Positions 38,230-51,629 of a DNA stretch of 64,000 bases are shown here, one piece after another; the first letter of the stretch is position 1; every line of letters begins with the position of its first letter. This DNA comes from Gammaproteobacteria bacterium (lineage in GTDB: Bacteria; Pseudomonadota; Gammaproteobacteria; UBA6429; Thiohalophilaceae). Both the position numbers and the translations under genes were made by a program. A model generated the notes under the pieces. That model had not been told where the DNA came from. It made no database searches and saw only the letters and a program-made list of their open reading frames with translations. The stretch covers positions 62,001 to 126,000 of the forward strand of contig JACQBC010000034.1 of NCBI GenBank assembly GCA_016194635.1. The letters are read 5' to 3'.

Positions 38230-38297
38230 GCGCTAAATCCCTCGCGTTCTGGTTGAAAAAAGTGAGGGGAGTAACTCTCCCCCTCACCTAGGTTGGA

Positions 38298-38630
38298 TTA
38301 GACGCAACCCGTTGGTTTCGGCAGGCCCGCGTATTTACAGGCTTGTTTGCCAGGTCCGTAGGGGAACAGCTCGTACAAGTATTTGCTGTTGCCTTTATCC
38401 GGACCTAATTTCTTACCAATGGCCTTGGTTAACACGCGAACCGCAGGAGCAATCTGATACTCTTCGTAATATTCGCGCAGGAAGTTGATTACTTCCCAGT
38501 GGCTATCGGTTAGCTCGCAATTGTCGAGTTTCGCCATAATACCGGCGACGGCGGGTTCCCATTCGGTAAGATTGGAAAGATAGCCTTCTTCGTCGGTTTC
38601 CAGTGTTTTACCATTTACTTCGATTGGCAT
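38298..38630 (-). CDS. dsrC: DsrC, sulfur carrier protein with both C-terminal cysteines
   Basis: 110 aa from the ATG at 38630, which has GAGGAG upstream. An in-frame extension to 38723 runs into dsrH and is rejected. The DsrC/TusE fold is clear (MPIEVNGKTLETDEEGYLSN, SHWEVINFLREYYEEY). The flexible C-terminal arm reads QACKYAGLPKPTGCV, with both redox cysteines, so it can carry a persulfide or form the trisulfide handed to DsrMKJOP. It sits between dsrH and dsrM as in A. vinosum. Confidence 0.97.
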   Translation of the reverse strand: MPIEVNGKTLETDEEGYLSNLTEWEPAVAGIMAKLDNCELTDSHWEVINFLREYYEEYQIAPAVRVLTKAIGKKLGPDKGNSKYLYELFPYGPGKQACKYAGLPKPTGCV

Positions 38631-38676
38631 AGTACATTCTCCTCGTGCTGGTGAACAATAATGTTCCCGGTAGTGT

Positions 38677-38985
38677 TTAAAGCCAAGCTTGCACCTTGTC
38701 GTTTTCGACTGATAACTTAACAAAATCGTTGTAGTTCACAACTTTGATGCCATCGAGCACTTTAGCAGCATCAAGTCCACGTGCTTTTAAATCCGGTCCT
38801 AAAACATAAAATTGCAGGTTGCTCATCGCACCTTTAACCAAATTAGCAACCGCTGTATTTTTTAGTGCACCGTATACGCCGTCTTCATACATTAAAACAG
38901 CATTGCCTTTGGAGGCGAGTCGTACACAGGTTTCAAGCGAATTTTTTTCAAATGGCGATTTATTTACAGTATGTAAAGTTGACAT
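38677..38985 (-). CDS. dsrH: DsrH, TusB-like subunit of the DsrEFH sulfurtransferase
   Basis: 102 aa. TusB/DsrH fold: MSTLHTVNKSPFEKNSLETC at the start and LMYEDGVYGALKNT near residue 33. It forms the DsrE2F2H2 hexamer with the two preceding gene products. That complex passes persulfide sulfur to DsrC, encoded 46 nt downstream. dsrF ends 15 nt upstream. The Cys in LETC is near the N-terminus. Confidence 0.93.
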   Translation of the reverse strand: MSTLHTVNKSPFEKNSLETCVRLASKGNAVLMYEDGVYGALKNTAVANLVKGAMSNLQFYVLGPDLKARGLDAAKVLDGIKVVNYNDFVKLSVENDKVQAWL

Positions 38986-39000
38986 CAGTTAATCTCAAAA

Positions 39001-39408
39001 TTAGAAGTTCAGCAACACGTCTTGTTCTTCAAGTACTTTAACAAGATCACTGGCGCTGACAAGTTTGATGGAATCTTTCTCGGCATAGTTATCATTCTCG
39101 TCTTCGTATTTCAGCGGAATGAGATCGGCCACGGTTAGACCACGTTTTTCCAACGATTCTTTCTCAACAAAAATATTAGTGATGCCATAATCACCGAGCG
39201 CTGAGAAAGTCGGGGAGAAGTTTTTAATACCGAGTTGAGTGGTGTCTTGACCCTTGGTAATTTGATATACGCCGTCATCCAGGAAAGCAAGGCTGACTTG
39301 CTGATCAAAAGCGGCGCCGATCAAGACCACTTCGAGTGATTCCCATGCGTACACCGTGCCATACGGAGCGCGACGGTTTACATACATAAATTTTTTGATA
39401 TCCGACAT
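39001..39408 (-). CDS. dsrF: DsrF, TusC-like subunit of the DsrEFH sulfurtransferase
   Basis: 135 aa from the ATG at 39408, which has AAGGGGGG upstream. A start at 39435 would overlap dsrE and lacks a ribosome site. TusC/DsrF features: KKFMYVNRRAPYGTVYAWES near the start and VSLAFLDDGVYQITKGQD. It has no Cys at the usual persulfide site, as is normal for DsrF, where the active Cys lies in DsrE. It is followed by dsrH after 15 nt. Confidence 0.93.
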   Translation of the reverse strand: MSDIKKFMYVNRRAPYGTVYAWESLEVVLIGAAFDQQVSLAFLDDGVYQITKGQDTTQLGIKNFSPTFSALGDYGITNIFVEKESLEKRGLTVADLIPLKYEDENDNYAEKDSIKLVSASDLVKVLEEQDVLLNF

Positions 39409-39418
39409 AAGTCCCCCC

Positions 39419-39811
39419 TTAATCGCCAAACACAACGAGGCGATCGCACTGAATGGCGGCTTCGATCAATTGCCCAAGACCCGATATGCGGAATCCTTCG
39501 GCAATATTATTGCCATCTTTGCCATTACGTTTCTGCTCACCTTCATCAACGATACCGCGGCGTTGTGCCGCGGCAACGCAAACCACCAAATCAATTTTAT
39601 GTTCTTTGGCGAGTTTGGACCAGGTGTTAACGATATTCACATCATCTTGGGGTGGGCTGGCATAACGCGTGCCGTTATTAACACCGTCATGATAAAAGAA
39701 TACCCGAAATATCTCGTGTCCCGCCGCAAGTGCGGCCTTGATGTAATTCAAGGCCGACACGGAAGCTTCATGGGTATAGGGTCCTTCATTTATTTGAATA
39801 CCTAACTTCAT
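39419..39811 (-). CDS. dsrE: DsrE, TusD-like catalytic subunit of the DsrEFH sulfurtransferase
   Basis: 130 aa from the ATG at 39811, preceded by AAGGAA. The longer frame to 39853 overlaps dsrB and is rejected. TusD/DsrE features: MKLGIQINEGPYTH, ALAAGHEIFRVFFYHDGV near residue 25, and the active-site Cys in LVVCVAAAQRRG near residue 78, which carries the persulfide to DsrC. It begins 16 nt after the dsrB stop and ends 10 nt before the dsrF start. Confidence 0.94.
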   Translation of the reverse strand: MKLGIQINEGPYTHEASVSALNYIKAALAAGHEIFRVFFYHDGVNNGTRYASPPQDDVNIVNTWSKLAKEHKIDLVVCVAAAQRRGIVDEGEQKRNGKDGNNIAEGFRISGLGQLIEAAIQCDRLVVFGD

Positions 39812-39827
39812 GTACCATTCCTTATAT

Positions 39828-40907
39828 TTAGAAGCGGATATGGGTTGAGGCATTCAAGCTGTTACGCGCGCCTTTCCAGTTATCGATGTGGTACTTGGTG
39901 AAGGGCAAACCGGTCTTTTCAAAGAACCGCGGCCAACCGATACGTTCGATCCAATCATTGATACGCTCCCAATCACGCGCGTCTTCTTTGTAGGCCTTGA
40001 GGATCTGTTTAACGATCGCGGTCGCTTCTGGCCAACGGGGTGGATTGTTGGGAATACCGGCGGCCACCAATTTCTGGAAGGTGGGTTTACCGCGTGCATT
40101 GGAGTGGTTACCACCGACCCAGATGGCCAGTTTGGTATGTTCAGGATCATTGATCTGCATTGGAGGGCAGGGAGGATAACAGGCGCCACAACAGATACAT
40201 TTCTTTTCATCCACTTCCAGCGAAGGTTTACCATTCACCTGCGCGGGACGGATCGCGGCGACCGGGCAGCGCGCCACCACCGAAGGACGTTCACACACAT
40301 TGGCCACTAAGTTGTGATTGATCTTGGGTGGTTTGGTGTGTTGCACGTTAATCGCAATGTCACCTTGTCCACCGCAGTTGATCTGGCAGCAGGAGGTGGT
40401 CATGTGCACGCGGTTGGGCATATTATGATTTTTGAACTCGTCGATCAGTTCATCCATCATAGCCTTGACCACGCCCGAGGCGTCGGTGCCGGGGATGTCA
40501 CAGTGTAACCAGCCCTGGGTATGCGAGATCATCGATACCGAGTTGGCCGTGCCGCCCACAACAAAACCCGCGTCTTCCAAAGTTTTGATCAAGGGCTCGA
40601 CTTTCTTAGCATCGGCTAGCATATATTCGATGTTGGAACGAATGGTGAAACGCACATAGCCATCGGCATATTTTTCACCAATGTCGCATAACGTACGCAA
40701 GGTAAACACATCAAGGATACGTTGGGTACCGGCCTTTACGGTCCAGATCACATCGCCGTTATGCGCGACGTGTTTGAGCACACCCGGACGGGGGTGTTCA
40801 TGGTACGACCACTGGCCGTAGTTCTTACGCATCACCGGATGCATGTACTGGAAGCCATCGGGGCAACCGGTTTCAATCGGTGGGCGTAACTTGGGTTTGT
40901 CCGACAT
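39828..40907 (-). CDS. dsrB: DsrB, dissimilatory sulfite reductase beta subunit (reverse type)
   Basis: 359 aa. Siroheme/[4Fe-4S] motifs include TTSCCQINCGGQGD near residue 175 and CERPSVVARCPVAAIRP. A ferredoxin-like insert follows with CICCGACYPPCPP and the end segment WVGGNHSNARGKP. With DsrA it forms the alpha2beta2 enzyme that oxidises DsrC-bound or stored sulfur to sulfite. It lies 55 nt downstream of dsrA. Confidence 0.97.
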   Translation of the reverse strand: MSDKPKLRPPIETGCPDGFQYMHPVMRKNYGQWSYHEHPRPGVLKHVAHNGDVIWTVKAGTQRILDVFTLRTLCDIGEKYADGYVRFTIRSNIEYMLADAKKVEPLIKTLEDAGFVVGGTANSVSMISHTQGWLHCDIPGTDASGVVKAMMDELIDEFKNHNMPNRVHMTTSCCQINCGGQGDIAINVQHTKPPKINHNLVANVCERPSVVARCPVAAIRPAQVNGKPSLEVDEKKCICCGACYPPCPPMQINDPEHTKLAIWVGGNHSNARGKPTFQKLVAAGIPNNPPRWPEATAIVKQILKAYKEDARDWERINDWIERIGWPRFFEKTGLPFTKYHIDNWKGARNSLNASTHIRF

Positions 40908-40962: not shown

Positions 40963-42231
40963 TTAACCCGCCGCGGCCGCTTTTTCTTCAGCTTTACGTT
41001 GGAACCATTTCTCGGCTTCTTCATCCCAGCCGTCGGTACGTACATACGACGAGGTACGTGGGTGGTTTACCATGTTCGGATCGACCTCAATACCGACACC
41101 TTCCAAGAAGTTCACCAGACCGATACGCTCGATCATTTCACCGGTACGTTCGTGTTCCAGGGCATTTTCAGCGAAGAAGTCGATGGTGTTTTGTCCCAGC
41201 TCGACGATCTTTTCATAGTCTTCCGGAGTATCCAGTTTCATGAAGGGGACAATTACGGTTCCCATCAGGTCACCGATCTTCAAGGTGCGTTTACCACCGA
41301 TTAAAATGGTGACGCCTTTGTCATCACCAGGCGACAAGGCCTTGGGCATGACGTTCAAACAATGCATGCAACGCACGCAGTTCTTGTTGTCCACCACCAA
41401 GGTGTCATCGTCTTTTAAACTCAAGCACTGGGTGGGGCAACGGGTAACCACGTTATCGATCATGTATTGGCGGCCTTTCTTTTTCACAAAGGCTTTAACT
41501 TCGGTTTGATCGATCTTCATATCATCGCGCCACGTACCAATTACCGCGAAGTCCGAGCGTTCGATGGAATTCACACAGTCATTGGGGCAGCCGGATACTT
41601 TAAATTTAAATTTGTAGGGCAGGGCAGGGCGATGGACGTCATCGGTAAAGGTATTCACCAAGTGACGATGGATCGCTTGTTCGTTACAACAGGATTGTTC
41701 ACAACGGGCGGAGCCGACACAGGACATGGCGGTACGCACGCAAGGACCCGCCCCGCCTAAGTCCCAACCGTAGTCGTTAATTTCATCGAAAAAGTGTTGA
41801 GTATTTTCGGTGGTGGTGCCAATAAACATGATGTTGCCGGTTTGACCGTGAAAGGTCACCATACCGGAACCGAACTTTTCCCAGCTGTCCGCCAATTGGC
41901 GCAGCATCGCGGTGGTGTAGAAATTACCTGCGGGCGGTTGCACGCGCAGGGTATGGAATTCTTTAGATTCGGGGAAGGCTGCGCCTACTTCGGAGAACCG
42001 TGGAATAATACCGCCACCATATCCGAAGACGGATACTGTGCCGCCTTTCCAATAACCCTTGCGTGTTTCGTAGGAGTGTTCTAGCTGGCCTAACAGGGAA
42101 TTGGCCATTTCATTAATGCGTTTTTCAGGGTGTTTATCACGTAGACGCTTGAATCCAGCAATAAAACTGGGCCAAGGGCCTTCTTCGAGCACATCGAGCA
42201 TCGGGGTAGGGTGAATCTTCTTTTGATCCAT
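40963..42231 (-). CDS. dsrA: DsrA, dissimilatory sulfite reductase alpha subunit (reverse type)
   Basis: 422 aa from the ATG at 42231, preceded by GGAGAA. An in-frame start at 42258 is possible but lacks a ribosome site. Siroheme/Fe-S ligands are in AMSCVGSARCEQSCCNEQ near residue 185 and SGCPNDCVN. A ferredoxin insert follows with CVRCMHCLNVMPKAL. The neighbouring dsrEFH and dsrL mark the oxidative branch. It is the first gene of the operon dsrABEFHCMKLJOPNR, whose order matches A. vinosum up to dsrR. Confidence 0.98.
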   Translation of the reverse strand: MDQKKIHPTPMLDVLEEGPWPSFIAGFKRLRDKHPEKRINEMANSLLGQLEHSYETRKGYWKGGTVSVFGYGGGIIPRFSEVGAAFPESKEFHTLRVQPPAGNFYTTAMLRQLADSWEKFGSGMVTFHGQTGNIMFIGTTTENTQHFFDEINDYGWDLGGAGPCVRTAMSCVGSARCEQSCCNEQAIHRHLVNTFTDDVHRPALPYKFKFKVSGCPNDCVNSIERSDFAVIGTWRDDMKIDQTEVKAFVKKKGRQYMIDNVVTRCPTQCLSLKDDDTLVVDNKNCVRCMHCLNVMPKALSPGDDKGVTILIGGKRTLKIGDLMGTVIVPFMKLDTPEDYEKIVELGQNTIDFFAENALEHERTGEMIERIGLVNFLEGVGIEVDPNMVNHPRTSSYVRTDGWDEEAEKWFQRKAEEKAAAAG

Positions 42232-42592
42232 GGCGTTCTCCTCTGAGAAATTAACCAAGTTTATGCCGGCGTTAAGGTTAAATTGCTCTTACGCGGGACG
42301 GTAATAATCCCCGTAATCGCGCAGCGAAGTCTAGGCGTCGCATCCCCTCGGGGAGAACCCCACTGATGGGAGTGGCACTGTATTGATGTTTACCCACAAA
42401 GGGGTAGATACTTATTCATCGCAGGGTTTATTGGCCCTACGGGGTTGATTAAAAATAGTACCAATCACGCTTAAAACTGTTATGGTTCAATCGGTTGGAT
42501 AAAGTGTGCTTACCCGATAAAAATCACCACGCCAGCGTCTATCCGTTCTGGGGATGGGCAAGATCAGCGGGCACATTACAATACCACCTACC
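42232..42592. other. divergent upstream region between dsrA and the TauD-like gene
   Basis: 361 nt with no gene. It contains the NarL-type heptamer pair and an AT-rich stretch at 42448-42480 around GATTAAAAATAG that could hold promoters for either side. A GC-rich piece near 42330-42365 has short self-complementary segments. I could not place a convincing -35/-10 pair for dsrA. Confidence 0.5.
42391..42406. promoter_or_regulatory. NarL-type 7-2-7 inverted heptamer upstream of dsrA
   Basis: TACCCAC-AA-AGGGGTA: two heptamers in inverted orientation with a 2-bp gap. One matches the NarL/NarP consensus TACYYMT fully (read on the minus strand) and the other in six of seven positions. It is centred about 168 bp upstream of the dsrA start and about 195 bp upstream of the divergent dioxygenase gene. 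The NarL-like regulator encoded at the downstream end of the dsr cluster is the obvious candidate ligand. Binding is inferred. Confidence 0.5.
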
Positions 42593-43501
42593 ATGTCCAT
42601 CCTGTCGTTATCTCATTCTGATCCGAGTAGCCCATTTTTAGTGGCGAACCAGGCCCACTATCGCGCATGGCGGGAACAGAAACTGCGTGATTACCCGCAA
42701 CAGGCCGAGGCTTTATGCGTTGCTATCCGTGATCCCTATCGTTTAAGTCCAAGCGAGCATCACGACTTGCTGCAGCGTCTACACAAAACCAACCTGGTTT
42801 TTTACCGCATTACGGCATCGTTACCGATGGATAAATCCGCGCTTCGTCAGCTCGGTCGGCAATTGGGGCTACAACGGCTGGATAATAATTTATGCGCCGA
42901 TGAAGACAGCATCACTTCCTTGCGGGTGGTCGAAGACGGACGCCAGCGCAGTTACATCCCCTATACCAATCGCCGCCTAACCTGGCACACCGACGGTTAT
43001 TACAATCCACTCGATAAACAGATCCGCGGTATCATCATGCACTGTGTTGTGCCGGCGTTGCAGGGCGGTGAGAATAACTATCTCGACCATGAAGTGCTTT
43101 ATCTCCTCTTGCGGGATCAAAACCCGGCCTATATATCCGCCCTCATGCACCCCCAGGCCATGACGATCCCGCCCAACCGTGAAGAGGGTGAGGAGATCCG
43201 CGCGGCACAAACCGGGCCGGTATTTTCAATTGACGAAACAGGCCATTTGCACATGCGTTATTCCGCCCGCAGCCGCCACATCGTATGGCGAGAGGATCCG
43301 CTCCTCGCCCAGGCCGTTGCTGCAATCAACGAATTGCTGCAACCTGCGCTGCCCTATATGTTTCGCTACCGGCTGGAGGCCAACCACGGGGTGATCTGTA
43401 ACAACGTGCTGCATAACCGTAGCGGATTCACCGATGGTGATGCCACCCACAACCAGCGTTTATTGTATCGTGCGCGGTATTTTGATCGTGCCGCAGAATA
43501 A
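42593..43501 (+). CDS. TauD/TfdA-like Fe(II)/2-oxoglutarate dioxygenase-like protein
   Basis: 302 aa from the ATG at 42593. An in-frame ATG at 42554 would add 13 residues, and neither start has a strong ribosome site. The TauD fold is suggested by LTWHTDGYYNP near residue 145 (His-x-Asp iron ligands) and NNVLHNRSGF near 280 (distal His and Arg). It would hydroxylate an unknown substrate using 2-oxoglutarate. It is divergent from dsrA and heads a run of plus-strand genes with the 64-aa protein and the Cas6-like gene. A link to organosulfur use is speculative. Confidence 0.75.
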   Translation: MSILSLSHSDPSSPFLVANQAHYRAWREQKLRDYPQQAEALCVAIRDPYRLSPSEHHDLLQRLHKTNLVFYRITASLPMDKSALRQLGRQLGLQRLDNNLCADEDSITSLRVVEDGRQRSYIPYTNRRLTWHTDGYYNPLDKQIRGIIMHCVVPALQGGENNYLDHEVLYLLLRDQNPAYISALMHPQAMTIPPNREEGEEIRAAQTGPVFSIDETGHLHMRYSARSRHIVWREDPLLAQAVAAINELLQPALPYMFRYRLEANHGVICNNVLHNRSGFTDGDATHNQRLLYRARYFDRAAE

Positions 43502-43526: not shown

Positions 43527-43721
43527 ATGTTATGGTTAAGCGAAGTGTTACTCCAACAGTACGAAATCACATCTTTTGAACAATTAAAAACCGTCATTGC
43601 CGCGCGCGCCGCGCAAGGGGAAATGTTTTTCCGTATGGATGTTAAACCACCCTACGGTGATACCCCGGCCAATTGGGAAGACCAATTAGAATCGGCCTTT
43701 ACCAGTGGTCAACGACGCTAA
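43527..43721 (+). CDS. 64-aa conserved-looking small protein
   Basis: 64 aa from the ATG at 43527, with AGGTGA about 9 nt upstream. The sequence LWLSEVLLQQYEITSFEQLK, then GEMFFRMDVKPPYGDTPANW, is well formed and acidic, with no Cys. I recall similar small proteins beside dsr genes in other sulfur oxidisers, sometimes labelled as sulfur relay proteins, but cannot confirm it here. It lies between the TauD-like gene and the Cas6-like gene (11 nt gap), so it is probably co-transcribed. Function unknown. Confidence 0.65.
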   Translation: MLWLSEVLLQQYEITSFEQLKTVIAARAAQGEMFFRMDVKPPYGDTPANWEDQLESAFTSGQRR

Positions 43722-43732
43722 GGAAACACCGC

Positions 43733-44422
43733 ATGTTTTGGAATGATGACAATGCCGACAATAACCAGTTTGTGGTCCCCGATGATATCGTGGATATCGT
43801 CTACAAACTGGAGTGCAAAGCCTTGCCCTTGGATCACGCGTGGGCCTTGTCGCAGGGACTGGCACAGGCCCTGCCCTGGTTCCAGGGAGAACCCGCGGCG
43901 GGTGTGCATTTGATCCATGTCGCAGAATCCGGCAACGGCTGGTACCGTCCGGTTGATCCCGAGAAGGGTGTGTTGTATTTATCCAAACGAACCCGGCTCA
44001 CCCTGCGTATCCCCAAGCACCGCCTTGAAGACGCGCAACGGCTCACGGGCAGCACCCTGGATATCGACGGTAACCCGCTGACCGTCGGGCAAAGTTCCGT
44101 CAAACCGTTGAGCCCTTTAACGACCTTATTCTCGCGTTATGTCCTGTGTGATAACCCATGGGATGAGCTGCAGTTTTTAACCCAGGCGGCCGAGCAATTG
44201 CAAGCCATGGAGATCACCGCTAAAAAACTCATGGCAGGAAAACACACCACCTTCCGGATGCCGTCCGGACCGGTATCGGCCCGTAGCCTGATGGTGGCGG
44301 ATCTGACTGCGCAAACATCGGTCCGCTTGCAACAACAGGGTTTAGGCGCCGGGCGCCACTTCGGTTGTGGGCTATTCCTTCCCCAAAAAGGGATAAAAGC
44401 CGTCAATGCTGAAACGGACTAG
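43733..44422 (+). CDS. Cas6/Cmx6-like RNA-endonuclease-family protein, orphan
   Basis: 229 aa from the ATG at 43733, with AAGGAA upstream. Resembles the I-MYXAN type Cas6 (Cmx6) group. Features are ALPLDHAWALSQGLAQALPW near residue 33, GVHLIHVAESGNGWYRP, a repeated RAMP-like segment YLSKRTRLTLRIPKHRL, and the glycine-rich loop GLGAGRHFGCGLFLP at the C-terminus. Cas6 proteins cut CRISPR precursor RNA at repeat hairpins. Here it lies in a dsr-linked gene run with no array nearby, so an RNA role outside CRISPR is possible. His38 could be catalytic, but this is unproven. Confidence 0.72.
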   Translation: MFWNDDNADNNQFVVPDDIVDIVYKLECKALPLDHAWALSQGLAQALPWFQGEPAAGVHLIHVAESGNGWYRPVDPEKGVLYLSKRTRLTLRIPKHRLEDAQRLTGSTLDIDGNPLTVGQSSVKPLSPLTTLFSRYVLCDNPWDELQFLTQAAEQLQAMEITAKKLMAGKHTTFRMPSGPVSARSLMVADLTAQTSVRLQQQGLGAGRHFGCGLFLPQKGIKAVNAETD

Positions 44423-44517
44423 TTGATTCTCGAATTGAAATACAGATAATAAGCACCCTTTGTAGTTCATATTTGGCATTCGGGCTTCACAGCAACAACA
44501 ATTGAGAGGAAACGGCG

Positions 44518-44856
44518 ATGGCCTATGAGATTAATGGTAAAACCGTCGAGACTACTGCGAATGGTTACTTGGTTAATACCGAGGACTGGAACAAAGAAGT
44601 GGCAGAGCGAATCGCGGTACAAGAAGGTATTATGGAATTAACCCCACGGCATTGGGACATTATTAATTATCTACGCGAAGAATATTTCAATAATAACCAG
44701 AATCAACCCAACGAACGCACCATCCTAAAAGCCATGAACGATAAGTGGGGCAAGGCAACCTCCAAAGATACCTACGACTTATTTCCACAGATGCCCTCGA
44801 AACAAGGCGGAAAGATCGCGGGTCTACCCGAGAGTCGCCGCAAAGGGGGTTATTAA
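44518..44856 (+). CDS. DsrC/TusE-family protein lacking the C-terminal cysteines
   Basis: 112 aa. Clearly a DsrC fold (MAYEINGKTVETTANGYLVN, RHWDIINYLREEYFNN), but the arm reads PSKQGGKIAGLPESRRKGGY. The first redox Cys is Gly and the last is gone, and there is no Cys in the protein. DsrC homologues without these cysteines have been called RspA and suggested to be regulatory. It cannot carry sulfur on the arm, so it may compete with or sense DsrC partners. It lies 95 nt after the Cas6-like gene and has GAGAGGAAA upstream of its start. Confidence 0.9.
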   Translation: MAYEINGKTVETTANGYLVNTEDWNKEVAERIAVQEGIMELTPRHWDIINYLREEYFNNNQNQPNERTILKAMNDKWGKATSKDTYDLFPQMPSKQGGKIAGLPESRRKGGY

Positions 44857-44978
44857 TTTCTCGTTTCTATCCAAATTGGATATAGGTTAGGGGTTGGAGC
44901 CGGTGCTATATTTTCGGCTCACGTGGGTCTTGATTTAGCAACGACCTGGAACGAATTACACTTCAATGCGAGGTAGCC

Positions 44979-45185
44979 ATGAGCGACAAGACAGACAAGA
45001 TTCAGAAAATGCTCGAATTGCAAAAGAAATTTATGCAGTTTGAACACGAACACGGCGTGGATTCCGAAACTTATTATGCCGCGTCCGCTGAACACCCGCT
45101 GCACAACTATCGCCAGCAGTACCAGGAGTTAGCCAATGCCGTATGTAATCTGGCCCACGGCGAAAAAGGCTCAAAACGCGATTAG
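44979..45185 (+). CDS. 68-aa small helical protein of unknown function
   Basis: 68 aa. The sequence MSDKTDKIQKMLELQKKFMQ, then EHPLHNYRQQYQELANAVC, is strongly helical and charged with one Cys near the C-terminus. It begins with GAGG about 9 nt upstream. It lies 122 nt downstream of the DsrC-like gene and 28 nt before a terminator, so it is the last gene of this run. I do not recognise a family. Confidence 0.6.
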   Translation: MSDKTDKIQKMLELQKKFMQFEHEHGVDSETYYAASAEHPLHNYRQQYQELANAVCNLAHGEKGSKRD

Positions 45186-45213
45186 GGGTAAGGCTACAAG
45201 GTTAGTTCGAGAC

Positions 45214-45238
45214 AAAGCCGCAGAAATGCGGCTTTTTG
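45214..45238 (+). terminator. rho-independent terminator
   Basis: Stem AGCCGCA / TGCGGCT (7 bp) with a GAAA loop, followed by TTTTT on the plus strand and preceded by AAA. It ends the plus-strand run that begins at the TauD-like gene, 28 nt after the 68-aa gene. Confidence 0.85.
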
Positions 45239-45324
45239 ATTTATTATCAATGAGTTATCGGATGATCTTAAAGTAAGTCGTATTTACATTAGAATAGCAA
45301 TATAACCTGCTGTTATTTCTATAG

Positions 45325-45999
45325 TTATAGCTCAGACCACATCCTAACCAAGTTCACATAGGTGTGGTCGATTTTTTGGGTATCCGGATCCGCAGGCGAG
45401 GTTTTTAACCACCGTTCACGCACATGATTGAGTTCATAGAGTAACTCGCGTTGCGCAGGATTGCGGATCAAGCTTTGTACCCAAGTGACGGCCACCAGCC
45501 GTTGCCCTGCGCGAACCGGAGTGACTTGATGCAGGCTTGAGGCCGGGTAGATCACCGCGTGTCCGGCCGGGCATTTGATGCGCTCTTGGCCGTACTGGGT
45601 TGCGATCACCAATTCACCACCGTCGTACTCCTGGGGTGCATTTAAAAATACGGTGACCGCGATATCGGAACGGTAACGCTGACCGGCAGGCCCCATGACG
45701 GGGTCGTCGATATGCTCGCCATAGGCTTGGCCAACCGTGTAACGGGCATAAAACGGCATGGCGATACGGTGTGGCAGCACCGCCGACTGAAATTGCGGGT
45801 GCTGGACCAATACCGACATTACCAGATGATTGAGGCGATTAAGCTGCGCAGCGGTGTGCTGCATTTCAGAATTATTTTTAACCTGTCGTGCTACATCGCC
45901 GGCCGAGAGTTTCCCATCGACAAACGGCGCCGCCGCGAGCAATTTTTGAATCTCGGTGAGGTTCTCGGCGGGCAAGACCGCGGGTATTTCCACCAGCAT
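45325..45999 (-). CDS. PKHD-type Fe(II)/2-oxoglutarate hydroxylase (PiuC/YbiX family)
   Basis: 224 aa, the usual PiuC length. The double-stranded beta-helix core has the HxD motif in YGEHIDDPV near residue 97 and the distal His in SSLHQVTPVRAGQR near 158 with the 2-oxoglutarate Arg. Family members are often iron-regulated and hydroxylate an unknown substrate. Its 5' end is 66 nt from the divergent 106-aa gene. The C-terminal QKIDHTYVNLVRMWSEL matches the PiuC end. Confidence 0.9.
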   Translation of the reverse strand: MLVEIPAVLPAENLTEIQKLLAAAPFVDGKLSAGDVARQVKNNSEMQHTAAQLNRLNHLVMSVLVQHPQFQSAVLPHRIAMPFYARYTVGQAYGEHIDDPVMGPAGQRYRSDIAVTVFLNAPQEYDGGELVIATQYGQERIKCPAGHAVIYPASSLHQVTPVRAGQRLVAVTWVQSLIRNPAQRELLYELNHVRERWLKTSPADPDTQKIDHTYVNLVRMWSEL

Positions 46000-46064
46000 A
46001 TGCGCTATAGGGGGAGGGATGATTTCCCGTTACAATAGATTGACCCAGTGTATAGGAATTTAAA

Positions 46065-46385
46065 ATGAAACTAAATGTACAAATCGATGACAGCCTGTAT
46101 CAAGTTGAAGTGCCGGACGATATGCTCAGCGAAGCCAAGGCTGTTTTTCAAAAAATAGATCGTGATCTCGACGCGGGCTGGCAAATGAGCCGTGAATGGA
46201 TAAGCAGCCTTGATGCCGCGCAGCGTTGTCAGGTGGCTGCCGATCGGTTATTAACCGCGATTGAAAATAATAATCAAGCCAGTATAACCATGATGGCGGG
46301 TTACATTCTGAATAAACTACCCACTATCCGCAGTATCCATATCGACACCACCGGCGATATGACCCAAACCCAGATTATTTTGTGA
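46065..46385 (+). CDS. 106-aa protein of unknown function
   Basis: 106 aa. It begins with a short beta-rich part (MKLNVQIDDSLYQVEVPDDM). A helical middle follows with DRDLDAGWQMSREWISSLD and AADRLLTAIENNNQASITMM, then a beta-like end (IRSIHIDTTGDMTQTQI). The composition looks like a genuine soluble protein. No family recognised. It is followed by 174 nt without a gene, then palindrome copy C. Confidence 0.65.
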   Translation: MKLNVQIDDSLYQVEVPDDMLSEAKAVFQKIDRDLDAGWQMSREWISSLDAAQRCQVAADRLLTAIENNNQASITMMAGYILNKLPTIRSIHIDTTGDMTQTQIIL

Positions 46386-46559
46386 AACAACCCTGATCCT
46401 AGCGGGAAAAATTTCGATTCTTGGTTCTTCGCCTGGCTAAAACCGCTGTGGTTTAATTCTACCCCTGTGTTTGATCAACAATAGCGCCACGCGTATGAAG
46501 CTGATTATCAAGCGTTCTGCAAGTAATCCCATTGAATATCATAATCCTGAATCCAGTGG

Positions 46560-46687
46560 TGACGTTGGTGGTGGGCGGCTGTCGCGGTGCAGGTGACTCG
46601 CTGTGAATACATCCTTGTACGCTCGGGGGCGGCATCCCTGCCGCCCACGGTCACCTGCACCGCGACAGCCGCCCACCACCAACGTCA
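46560..46687 (+). repeat. private-arm palindrome, copy C (core on plus strand)
   Basis: Perfect 38-nt arms at 46560-46597 and 46650-46687 enclose a 52-nt core at 46598-46649, the longest arms of the five copies. The core has the 20-nt motif with GTAC instead of GTAG, and the inner hairpin GGGCGGC-ATCCCT-GCCGCCC. The last three bases of the right arm (46685-46687) are the stop codon of the convergent hydroxylase gene on the minus strand, so the arm reaches the end of that gene. Confidence 0.95.
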
Positions 46688-47302
46688 GGCAAATACCACC
46701 CAGGTGGTTGCAATGTATTTAATCCCCTGTTGCAGGGTGACACCGCGGTGTTCGTGAGTCCAGAAGGGGGGGAATAAAATTAATTTGCCGGCTTCGGGTT
46801 TTATTGCGACCTGCTGATAAAAAAATTCGGTCTCTCCCCCCGGGCCGGGGACATCGTTGAGATACCAAAGCGCCACCAGTTGACGCTGGCTGAACTCGTG
46901 GCTGCCCCCGTCGATATGCCAGTGATAATGTTCACCCGGCGCGGTGCGTTGCAGGGCGTAACCCAGGTCTTTAAATTTACCTTTAAAATATGGGAAGGTC
47001 TCGCGGAATTCGACGATCGCCTGACCCAGGGATTGAAACAGGGCGCGATCCACGTCTTTCCAGTGGGGTTTCCCGCTGACGACTAAATCGGTGGATTTTT
47101 TAATGCTACGGTCTTGGGTGGCGCGTTGGCCTACCCGGCCCAAGTAGTGTTCGTCTTGATGGGTTTCAAATCGGGTGATGATTTGCTGGCAAAATTCCGC
47201 ACTCAAGGACTGCCGTTTTTCAAAGATAAAACTATTGGGCGTTACTTCAACCAGGGTTTTTAAAGGCAACAGCTGTTTTTCACTGCTCGGTTCGGATGAC
47301 AT
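46685..47302 (-). CDS. prolyl-hydroxylase-like Fe(II)/2-oxoglutarate dioxygenase
   Basis: 205 aa. P4H-type fold: YHWHIDGGSHEF near residue 127 carries the His-x-Asp pair, and FWTHEHRGVTLQQGIKY carries the distal His. GGETEFFYQQVAIKP between them is typical. Its substrate, possibly a protein or small molecule, is unknown. It ends inside the right arm of palindrome copy C and starts 11 nt after the stop of the upstream 347-aa gene, so those two are probably an operon. Confidence 0.82.
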   Translation of the reverse strand: MSSEPSSEKQLLPLKTLVEVTPNSFIFEKRQSLSAEFCQQIITRFETHQDEHYLGRVGQRATQDRSIKKSTDLVVSGKPHWKDVDRALFQSLGQAIVEFRETFPYFKGKFKDLGYALQRTAPGEHYHWHIDGGSHEFSQRQLVALWYLNDVPGPGGETEFFYQQVAIKPEAGKLILFPPFWTHEHRGVTLQQGIKYIATTWVVFA

Positions 47303-47313
47303 AGCGCAAGCGA

Positions 47314-48357
47314 CTATAAACGGTGTTGTTCGATCATGCTCACCAGGGCTTGATTAAACGACTCTGGATTGTCCTGTGCATAGGCCAGCACGTCATGACA
47401 GAGTTTACCCCAATGCTCAGCCCCTTCTTCCGCGATGGCATTTAGGGGACCACGGTCAGCGCAGCGATGCCAGGTGTCATAGGCGCTAACCAACCCCGGA
47501 AACAGGTGTTTACGCATCGGAGTGAGATTTGCCAGGAAAAAATGCAGTGACCCCGGTTGTTGCAACGCCAATATCTGTGGTAGCGTTGAAATACAATCGG
47601 CATACAGGTCACGGATCGCGCGTAACATAACTTCCAGTTTAGAGCGCGGTGTTTTGAGTAATAATTCTTCCCAGGCCCCGCCAAAGCGGTGATGCGCCAT
47701 GACCTCGCCGATCTCGTGCCACAACGCCGCCTTTAACTCCGAATGGGTCATCTTGTCGAGGGCCTGATCAACATCCGTACTAAAATCGTATTCGGCGAGC
47801 GCTCGGCCGAGGGCATTGTCGGGTTTGTTCCATAACCATTGCTCGTATTTTTCCCACAACATGCGGCGCAGGGCATCACGCCGGAGGTAAATCGTTTTGC
47901 CCTGACTCATCGCCGGGGGCGAGGTCAAGTCACAGGCGTATTCATCGCCGGCGACGTAAATATCGTATCCTTGGTGTTGTTCATGGGTCTCCAGCACGCC
48001 TAAAAAGAAATGCGGCTTCACGTTGTAACCAAAACCACCGCTGTAGATCAAGTGATGGGGTTGCAGCGCGGCATTAATCGCGGTGCAATCGAAGGGATCG
48101 TGGCTGTGGTCGTCGATGCGGATCGGGGCGAACTGTTCTTCCTCAAGGGCTTGCCAGAGTTTTTCTCGGTTCCGAAGCCATTCGCCCACGGCGTGGTTTG
48201 GTAAATTATCCCCGTAGTTAAACCCGTGTTCCCAGCGGTAATACTCGCGCATTTTCATCAAATAGATACACAGGGTATAGTCGCTGGCCGTATTGGCATC
48301 GGCGATGTGGCAATTTTTCTGTACGGTTTGTTTAATACTGCTAAGGTCGAGGTTCAT
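47314..48357 (-). CDS. 347-aa conserved-looking protein of unknown function (Sfum_1244-like?)
   Basis: 347 aa, soluble. Notable segments are NTASDYTLCIYLMKMREYYR near residue 20, NAALQPHHLIYSGGFGYNVK near 97, and AALWHEIGEVMAHHRFGGAW with a HEIGE motif like a metal site near residue 215. It resembles what I recall as the Sfum_1244 family found with sulfur-metabolism genes, but I could not check this. It is the first gene of a minus-strand pair with the prolyl-hydroxylase-like gene. Confidence 0.6.
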   Translation of the reverse strand: MNLDLSSIKQTVQKNCHIADANTASDYTLCIYLMKMREYYRWEHGFNYGDNLPNHAVGEWLRNREKLWQALEEEQFAPIRIDDHSHDPFDCTAINAALQPHHLIYSGGFGYNVKPHFFLGVLETHEQHQGYDIYVAGDEYACDLTSPPAMSQGKTIYLRRDALRRMLWEKYEQWLWNKPDNALGRALAEYDFSTDVDQALDKMTHSELKAALWHEIGEVMAHHRFGGAWEELLLKTPRSKLEVMLRAIRDLYADCISTLPQILALQQPGSLHFFLANLTPMRKHLFPGLVSAYDTWHRCADRGPLNAIAEEGAEHWGKLCHDVLAYAQDNPESFNQALVSMIEQHRL

Positions 48358-51435: not shown

Positions 51436-51549
51436 GAACTTGCGCAGCAAACCCAGTTTATGTAACAGGCGGCCGCAGGGATGCGGCCGCCCAGCGTACA
51501 GGGATGTATTTACAGCGTGTCACATAAACTGGGTTTGCTGCGCAAGTTC
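51436..51549 (-). repeat. private-arm palindrome, copy E (core on minus strand)
   Basis: Arms of 31 nt at 51436-51466 and 51519-51549 pair with one mismatch around a 52-nt core at 51467-51518. Read on the minus strand, the core has the 20-nt motif with GTAC, and the inner hairpin GGCGGCCGC-ATCCCT-GCGGCCGCC is 9 bp. It lies 162 nt from copy D in the opposite orientation. The 51144-51629 gap holds copies D and E and nothing else I recognise. Confidence 0.93.
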
Positions 51550-51629
51550 GCAACCTCCATAATGTGCTGCACGGTAATACATAACAATGATGTAATCACA
51601 GAATATAATCAAATCGACAGAGGATCTAA

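Follow-up and report, generated by a model that had tools for sequence, protein, structure and literature searches.

The gene at positions 43733–44422 (+) of the window, which is the whole analysed stretch of 64,000 nucleotides from a gammaproteobacterial contig, encodes a Cas6/Cmx6-like protein of 229 amino acids and belongs to a widespread Cas6 clade outside CRISPR that is linked, in Gammaproteobacteria, with reverse-Dsr sulfur oxidation (hereafter, dsr-type Cas6). The presence of Cas6 commonly counts as a sign of CRISPR immunity, and TIGR02807, a profile that the gene passes, names it as a CRISPR gene; yet the clade follows a metabolic pathway, with dsrA found in 111 of the 118 sampled genomes that carry it. 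In sulfur oxidisers, a Cas6/Cmx6 call should not be read as evidence of a CRISPR system. The reading that fits best, with a probability of roughly 60%, is that a domesticated Cas6 serves the dsr pathway by acting on a fixed RNA of the cell. Because the clade tracks dsrA and is kept in five genomes of 1.0–1.1 Mb that have no Cas1 match, it suggests that one of the main pathways of sulfur oxidation includes an RNA step so far undiscovered, and it would provide a concrete case of CRISPR machinery made a core metabolic component. In the open literature searched, no description of a Cas6 in a dsr locus was found.

Family membership and relatives of the protein

The assignment to the Cas6 family relies on two lines of evidence, profile scores and a predicted structure. 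PF09559 matches the protein with 210.2 bits against a cut-off of 26.7 (E = 3.5e-62), and TIGR02807 with 131.6 bits against 98.85 (E = 3.4e-38), both curated cut-offs being exceeded; the Cas6 profile of PADLOC matches as well (E = 7.6e-62). When the single protein was searched against the PDB sequences, the Cas6 of a type I-B CAST was the sole match up to an E of 10 (E = 3e-8). With a profile of the family, this match reached an E of 1.3e-27, and the second-best match lay at 0.24. The structural model (pLDDT 91.4, pTM 0.87) is predicted to have the double ferredoxin-like fold of Cas6 and aligns with the CAST Cas6 (8fcj_B) at a Z of 25.3 (rmsd 2.2 over 198 residues, 23% identity). The further Cas6-type PDB entries reach a Z of 17 or less (5yi6, 16.8), and the top structural matches bear the titles Cas6, Cse3 or Cascade. 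Since the profiles exceed their cut-offs and the model has the Cas6 fold, the protein belongs to the Cas6 family. The suggestion of a Cas6/Cmx6-like protein, made in an earlier note from the sequence, is thereby borne out by PF09559, TIGR02807, PADLOC and the fold of the model; that note had proposed the TIGR02807 search as a check that could have returned no Cas6 match. The glycine-rich loop that it had seen at the C-terminus is present, and is conserved among the dsr-type proteins too.

The two nearest known systems differ from the dsr-type proteins in different ways. The fold of 8fcj_B is alike from end to end and the glycine-rich C-terminal motif is common to both, but 8fcj_B is part of a Cascade, according to its PDB title, whereas the dsr-type proteins have none of the tested cas genes nearby. 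It also has an Asn aligned to H35 and a gap opposite the ESGNGW loop of the dsr-type. The cyanobacterial type I-MYXAN Cas6/Cmx6 is described by TIGR02807, the cut-off of which the dsr-type protein passes, and it shares H35, R92, R135 and the glycine-rich loop; nevertheless, the identity is only 22–29%, and it stands on the opposite side of the tree (100/97). That tree of 98 proteins, which is read without a root and in which the bootstrap is not fully settled, sets 92 dsr-type proteins apart from six cyanobacterial plasmid ones with a support of 100/97. Of these six, five have cas3, cas8/cmx8 and cas5 as neighbours, the exception being a copy on a Gloeobacter plasmid. Counted over all seven plasmid relatives, six adjoin cas3, cas8/cmx8 and cas5, compared with none of the 118 dsr-type loci within the flanks that were fetched. 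The label of a type I-MYXAN CRISPR Cas6 does not fit the dsr-type proteins: the tested cas genes stand beside none of the 118 loci in the flanks fetched, no clear association with Cas1 was seen, and arrays, looked for in the window's genome, lie with its two CRISPR loci. On the Gloeobacter morelensis plasmid (L144, 5974–8172), the Cas6/Cmx6 gene lies one gene from a PAPS-reductase family gene, and no cas genes are listed within 6 kb in the PLSDB gene tables, which are incomplete.

The extent to which Cas6 and dsrA share a history was estimated from 41 loci. The Cas6 and dsrA distances correlate with an r of 0.51, a value as high as this being reached in 0 of 999 permutations, and dsrA and dsrB with an r of 0.84; on average, Cas6 distances are roughly threefold those of dsrA. 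The Cas6 and dsrA distances agree only moderately, which leaves room for some transfer or for rapid evolution.

Gene neighbourhood and co-occurrence with dsrA

In the window, Cas6 is the third of five genes on the same strand, in the order TauD, p64, Cas6, DsrC2 and p68, and this operon starts just upstream of dsrA, from which it diverges at a distance of 295 nt by the listed ORF starts. The gaps between the genes are 25 nt (TauD–p64), 11 nt (p64–Cas6) and 95 nt (Cas6–DsrC2). In the earlier note, the gene was placed inside a dsr accessory gene run, between a 64-residue protein and a DsrC that has no cysteine. The two neighbours are as described (ORFs 43527–43721 and 44518–44856) and the gene is part of a sulfur locus; it is not inside the dsrABEFHC run, as the Cas6 operon is co-directional in itself and divergent from that run. 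The frequencies given below refer to 80 named loci, which were kept out of 222 relatives from a scan of genome contigs, and to the 118 Cas6 loci of a sample from the class.

The first module gene (42554–43501, +) is divergent from dsrA and encodes a TauD/TfdA-family Fe(II)/2OG dioxygenase (PF02668, 1.8e-17), which was found in 73/80 named loci and in 82/118 class loci, some of the latter being cut short. The commonest neighbour of Cas6 is the 64-residue p64 (43527–43721, +; an ORF), present in 76/80 and 98/118, and on the Parabeggiatoa/Marithrix contigs L090, L109 and L123 the p64–Cas6 pair alone is left of the genes tested. No match to p64 was found in Pfam, NCBIfam or PADLOC. Its model consists of three helices (pLDDT 88) and gave no PDB match with an E below 2, a result with which a known fold is still compatible. 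The gap between p64 and Cas6 is 46 nt or less in 96 of 146 relatives, from collections in which loci overlap. In 46 of these 146 gaps there is an extra gene of 220–272 residues, mostly about 235, as in L165 between p64 (7207) and Cas6 (8143); one such gene was scanned and had no Pfam match over the cut-off.

DsrC2 (44518–44856, +), found in 75/80 named loci, is a paralogue of the DsrC/TusE family, with which it shares PF04358 (3.2e-32) and TIGR03342. It differs from DsrC/TusE in lacking the penultimate redox cysteine, a residue described as strictly conserved in DsrC in PMC3397948; it has no cysteine at all and ends in RKGGY. The KGGY C-terminus was found in 112 of 112 relatives of DsrC2, and 11 of these 112 have a cysteine elsewhere. 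A DsrC-like gene near a dsr cluster, THSYN_22565 of Thiodictyon, is mentioned in PMC5944118, and no Cas6 is named in that passage. The final module gene, p68 (44979–45185, +), an ORF for which an alignment was made, encodes 68 residues; it had no match in Pfam and a match at chance level in NCBIfam, and it was found in 58/80 named loci. It is followed by a terminator-like hairpin and T run (45214–45238, +), seen from sequence and folding. A PKHD-type hydroxylase gene on the opposite strand (45325–45999, −; NF003974, 2.3e-72) is a frequent neighbour (55/80). Beyond the module, in the region 45325–48357, a second further Fe(II)/2OG oxygenase (36/80) and a Sfum_1244-family protein (39/80) were also observed.

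On the other side, dsrA (40963–42258, −) begins the divergent dsrABEFHC operon and gives 626 bits with TIGR02064 at C36:102987–104198. The ORFs at 38298–40907 (−) are presumably dsrB, dsrE, dsrF, dsrH and dsrC, names that we assign by gene order. Among the 80 named loci, dsrA is present in 63 and the dsrABEFHC order is the same in 51.

The link with dsrA holds across the class. Among 369 genomes drawn from Gammaproteobacteria, with dsrA called at an E below 1e-30, Cas6 was found in 118 and dsrA in 119; 111 have both, seven Cas6 only, eight dsrA only and 243 neither (Fisher p = 7e-75). Cas1, by comparison, matched in 51 of the 118 genomes with Cas6 and in 85 of the 251 others, which is no clear association (p = 0.08), and dsrA itself is slightly associated with Cas1 (p = 0.04). 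The comparison of dsr against CRISPR that the earlier note had called for therefore shows a gene that tracks dsrA, and neither Cas1 nor cas operons. Its orphan status is also upheld: no tested I-MYXAN or I-C cas protein was found beside any of the 118 loci in the flanks fetched, which span 0–9 kb per side (median 4.6 kb; at most 1.6 kb on each side in 27 loci). In the order to which the window's genome belongs, Cas6 is a single-copy gene in 30 of 40 genomes and in all 18 genera; of the ten genomes lacking it, seven have no dsrA match and three have a contig end at dsrA or TauD. Five genomes of 1.0–1.1 Mb (G078, G180, G292, G324 and G387) carry Cas6 with dsrA, TauD, p64 and DsrC2, and the Cas1 search gave no match in them. 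In a phylum draw of 398 genomes (two draws of this size, taken as identical, are combined in the figures), dsrA was found in 53. Five of these are in the class, and all five have Cas6, compared with 0 of the 48 outside Gammaproteobacteria; in this sample, the recruitment of Cas6 is therefore a gammaproteobacterial event.

The 118 loci are dominated by the expected arrangement. Cas6 lies by dsrAB and the module in 60, by the module in 47 (some on short contigs) and by dsrAB only in three, making 110 beside dsrAB and/or module genes. Of the remainder, G126 has Cas6 beside accessory genes only, and seven genomes (G071, G136, G362, G264, G148, G081 and G215) carry it elsewhere, apart from the dsr and module genes tested; all seven have dsrA. 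All seven genomes with Cas6 only have at least two of TauD, p64, DsrC2 and p68 adjoining Cas6, and one of their loci (L153) has a piece of dsrA where its contig begins. In six of the eight genomes with dsrA only (G245, G162, G276, G109, G118 and G149), the contig ends before the expected place of Cas6; in G162, TauD and p64 are present and the contig stops where Cas6 is expected. The other two are exceptions that contig ends do not explain: G391 has 1.7 kb upstream of dsrA on its contig and G249, with a single dsrA, more than 7 kb, in both cases with no module gene. In the four most distant loci (L171–L174; Cas6 33–38% identical), Cas6 adjoins dsrA; next come a DsrC-family gene, a p182-like gene and TauD, and p64 was not detected.

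No common partner was found for the moved Cas6 of the seven genomes. In L157 (7779–9174) and L158 (7638–9037), whose genomes measure 1.4 and 1.6 Mb, the moved gene diverges from what we take to be an RNase III gene and from era. Its position in L198 is upstream of a presumed YeeE/YedE-like protein, and in L050 it follows a presumed RlmB-like gene, all these names being assigned from the sequences.

Conserved residues and possible functions

The residue counts come from 191 unique sequences of the dsr-type. H35 is present in 188 of them and replaced by Asn in three; in the model, it stands just before the helix of residues 36–46, where the catalytic histidines of Cas6e, Cas6f and Cas6A are located. 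H35 is a putative catalytic residue on account of this position, since 8fcj_B and three of the 191 carry Asn. The glycine-rich loop is that of a Cas6 (G203 in 190, G205 in 187, G211 in 189 and G213 in 191). R86 and R92 are invariant (191/191), E145 is found in 189, K165 in 181 (Arg in eight) and K219 in 184, with Arg in the other seven, so that Lys or Arg occupies this position throughout. H59 is less strict (178/191). All seven plasmid relatives have H35, and R92, R135 and the greater part of the glycine-rich loop are common to both groups; E145, K165 and Lys219 occur in none of them (Arg219 in one) and R86 in one. An AESGNGWxRP-like loop is also absent from these seven, G69 excepted; within the dsr-type, its E65 is kept in 143/191 and the loop is reduced in distant loci. 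With E145, K165 and R86, this loop marks the dsr-type and fits one fixed ligand; a basic residue set that is constant across many families suggests, as far as sequences can tell, one conserved RNA ligand.

The steady presence of Cas6 in a dsr neighbourhood, away from CRISPR, suggests that it was recruited for an RNA-related job in sulfur metabolism. We infer that a Cas6/Cmx6-type protein was captured in Gammaproteobacteria and then lost its CRISPR context. Its gene would now persist in single copy as an accessory of the reverse-Dsr pathway, within the TauD/p64/DsrC2/p68 operon. To judge by its residues, the protein most likely still binds RNA and probably cuts it in the metal-independent way of Cas6; His35 would serve as general base or acid, and the glycine-rich loop would hold the RNA in place. 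Instead of a CRISPR repeat, its target would be a single, fixed RNA of the cell; p64 may be the partner, and the output may help to tune the Dsr pathway or to assemble it, for instance through an RNA that is matured or silenced under a DsrC2/TauD signal. A bolder and rather doubtful extension is that a ribonuclease of CRISPR origin stands at the core of gammaproteobacterial reverse-Dsr oxidation and forms, with p64, DsrC2 and the dioxygenase, an RNA-level switch that reads the status of the sulfur relay, such as by cutting or guarding Tus-thiolated tRNA or dsr mRNA. If so, this would be, to our knowledge, the first case of a Cas6 acting on a housekeeping substrate. The sole hint at tRNA comes from TusE, a DsrC relative that is said, in PMC3397948, to serve tRNA thiolation.

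The same residues can be read in other ways. A domesticated Cas6 that binds RNA without cutting it, as a regulator or chaperone of the dsr system, is a possible, though less than even, alternative: R86, R92, K219 (as Lys/Arg) and the glycine-rich loop are all stricter than His59, and the Asn that replaces H35 in three of 191 proteins is also found in the Cascade-bound 8fcj_B. However, retention of H35 in 188/191 and in all seven plasmid relatives would be needless for a pure binder, unless H35 itself binds. A reuse of the fold without RNA, as a protein–protein adaptor for p64, DsrC2 or the TauD-like enzyme, for example, would agree with the metabolic neighbours, of which p64 is the commonest, and with the new conserved AESGNGWxRP-like loop that is missing from the seven plasmid relatives. 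The entire RNA-gripping C-terminal motif is retained, though, and the adaptor is decidedly unlikely.

Two readings that keep the gene within CRISPR biology carry far less weight. It is very improbable that the protein is a solo Cas6 serving arrays elsewhere in the genome, even though 51 of the 118 Cas6 genomes have a Cas1 match and there are two CRISPR loci in the window's genome. The nearest cas gene is a Cas5c-like ORF from 57393, about 13 kb away (TIGR01876, 44 bits, under the cut-off of 85), in keeping with the earlier observation that no array or cas gene lies within 13 kb. The cas set near 57.5 kb is type I-C-like, as had been proposed, and its array lies beyond the window, at the end of contig C36. 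The second locus, on C31, has its own array and the second Cas1 match, and it is of what we take, from the sequence, to be a Cas9-Cas1-Cas2 type. A Cas9 system matures its RNA by RNase III with tracrRNA and type I-C by Cas5, so neither locus needs the dsr-type Cas6. In addition, 67/118 genomes have no Cas1 match, there is no clear link to Cas1, and the gene linkage is to dsr. That the gene is a decaying CRISPR remnant or a hitch-hiker next to dsr is scarcely credible. Tested cas genes are indeed missing from the flanks, but no internal stop was found in any listed match of the 118 genomes (G301 has two overlapping matches), the residues are strictly conserved, and the gene is kept in genomes of 1.0–1.1 Mb and in relocated copies.

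RNA and regulatory elements of the locus

No RNA substrate for the dsr-type Cas6 was found among palindromes, by spacer folding or in Rfam. The palindromes nearby had been put forward as possible RNA substrates in the earlier note, a proposal that was not supported. The element, with the core AGGGATGTATTYACAGCG, occurs at ~46550–46690 and ~51440–51560, its outer inverted arms differing between the two. Its core has 69 dispersed copies in the window's genome (up to two mismatches). With up to one mismatch, at least one copy was found in 12 of the 40 genomes of the order, three of which (G007, G024 and G034) have no Cas6, and at least six copies in seven of the 40; 21 of the 30 Cas6 genomes have none. 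The palindromes were rejected as a general Cas6 substrate given this dispersal and their absence from 21/30 Cas6 genomes.

Rfam gave no match at gathering score in the whole window, one match at chance level in 44400–45400, and two tRNAs only in four relatives. RNAalifold returned 0.0 for real and shuffled MAFFT alignments alike in 11 locus regions (25 relatives each, 14 for dsrE–dsrF), so that this comparison had no power to tell them apart. In a folding-energy survey of up to 45 sequences per region, the mean z was −3.7 in the region 3′ of p68 (45 of 81 relatives) and −2.56 in that 3′ of dsrC (43 relatives). Low folding energies after p68 and dsrC are as expected for terminators or attenuators. 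Between dsrC and the next gene (38230–38297) there is a strong hairpin followed by a T run, which is attenuator-like.

A motif in the spacer between DsrC2 and p68 (44871–44913) was considered as an RNA hairpin and dropped because it looks like a promoter: a conserved promoter-like box, CCAAAKTGGATATRG, is followed, after ~18 nt, by an extended −10-like TGCTATATT. With a strict pattern, it was found in 45 of 177 loci, and in 45 of 45 between dsrC2 and p68. Upstream of dsrC2, at ~44445–44465, a motif like TAATAAGCRCCCTTT was seen by eye in several relatives and may be a regulator site or a promoter.
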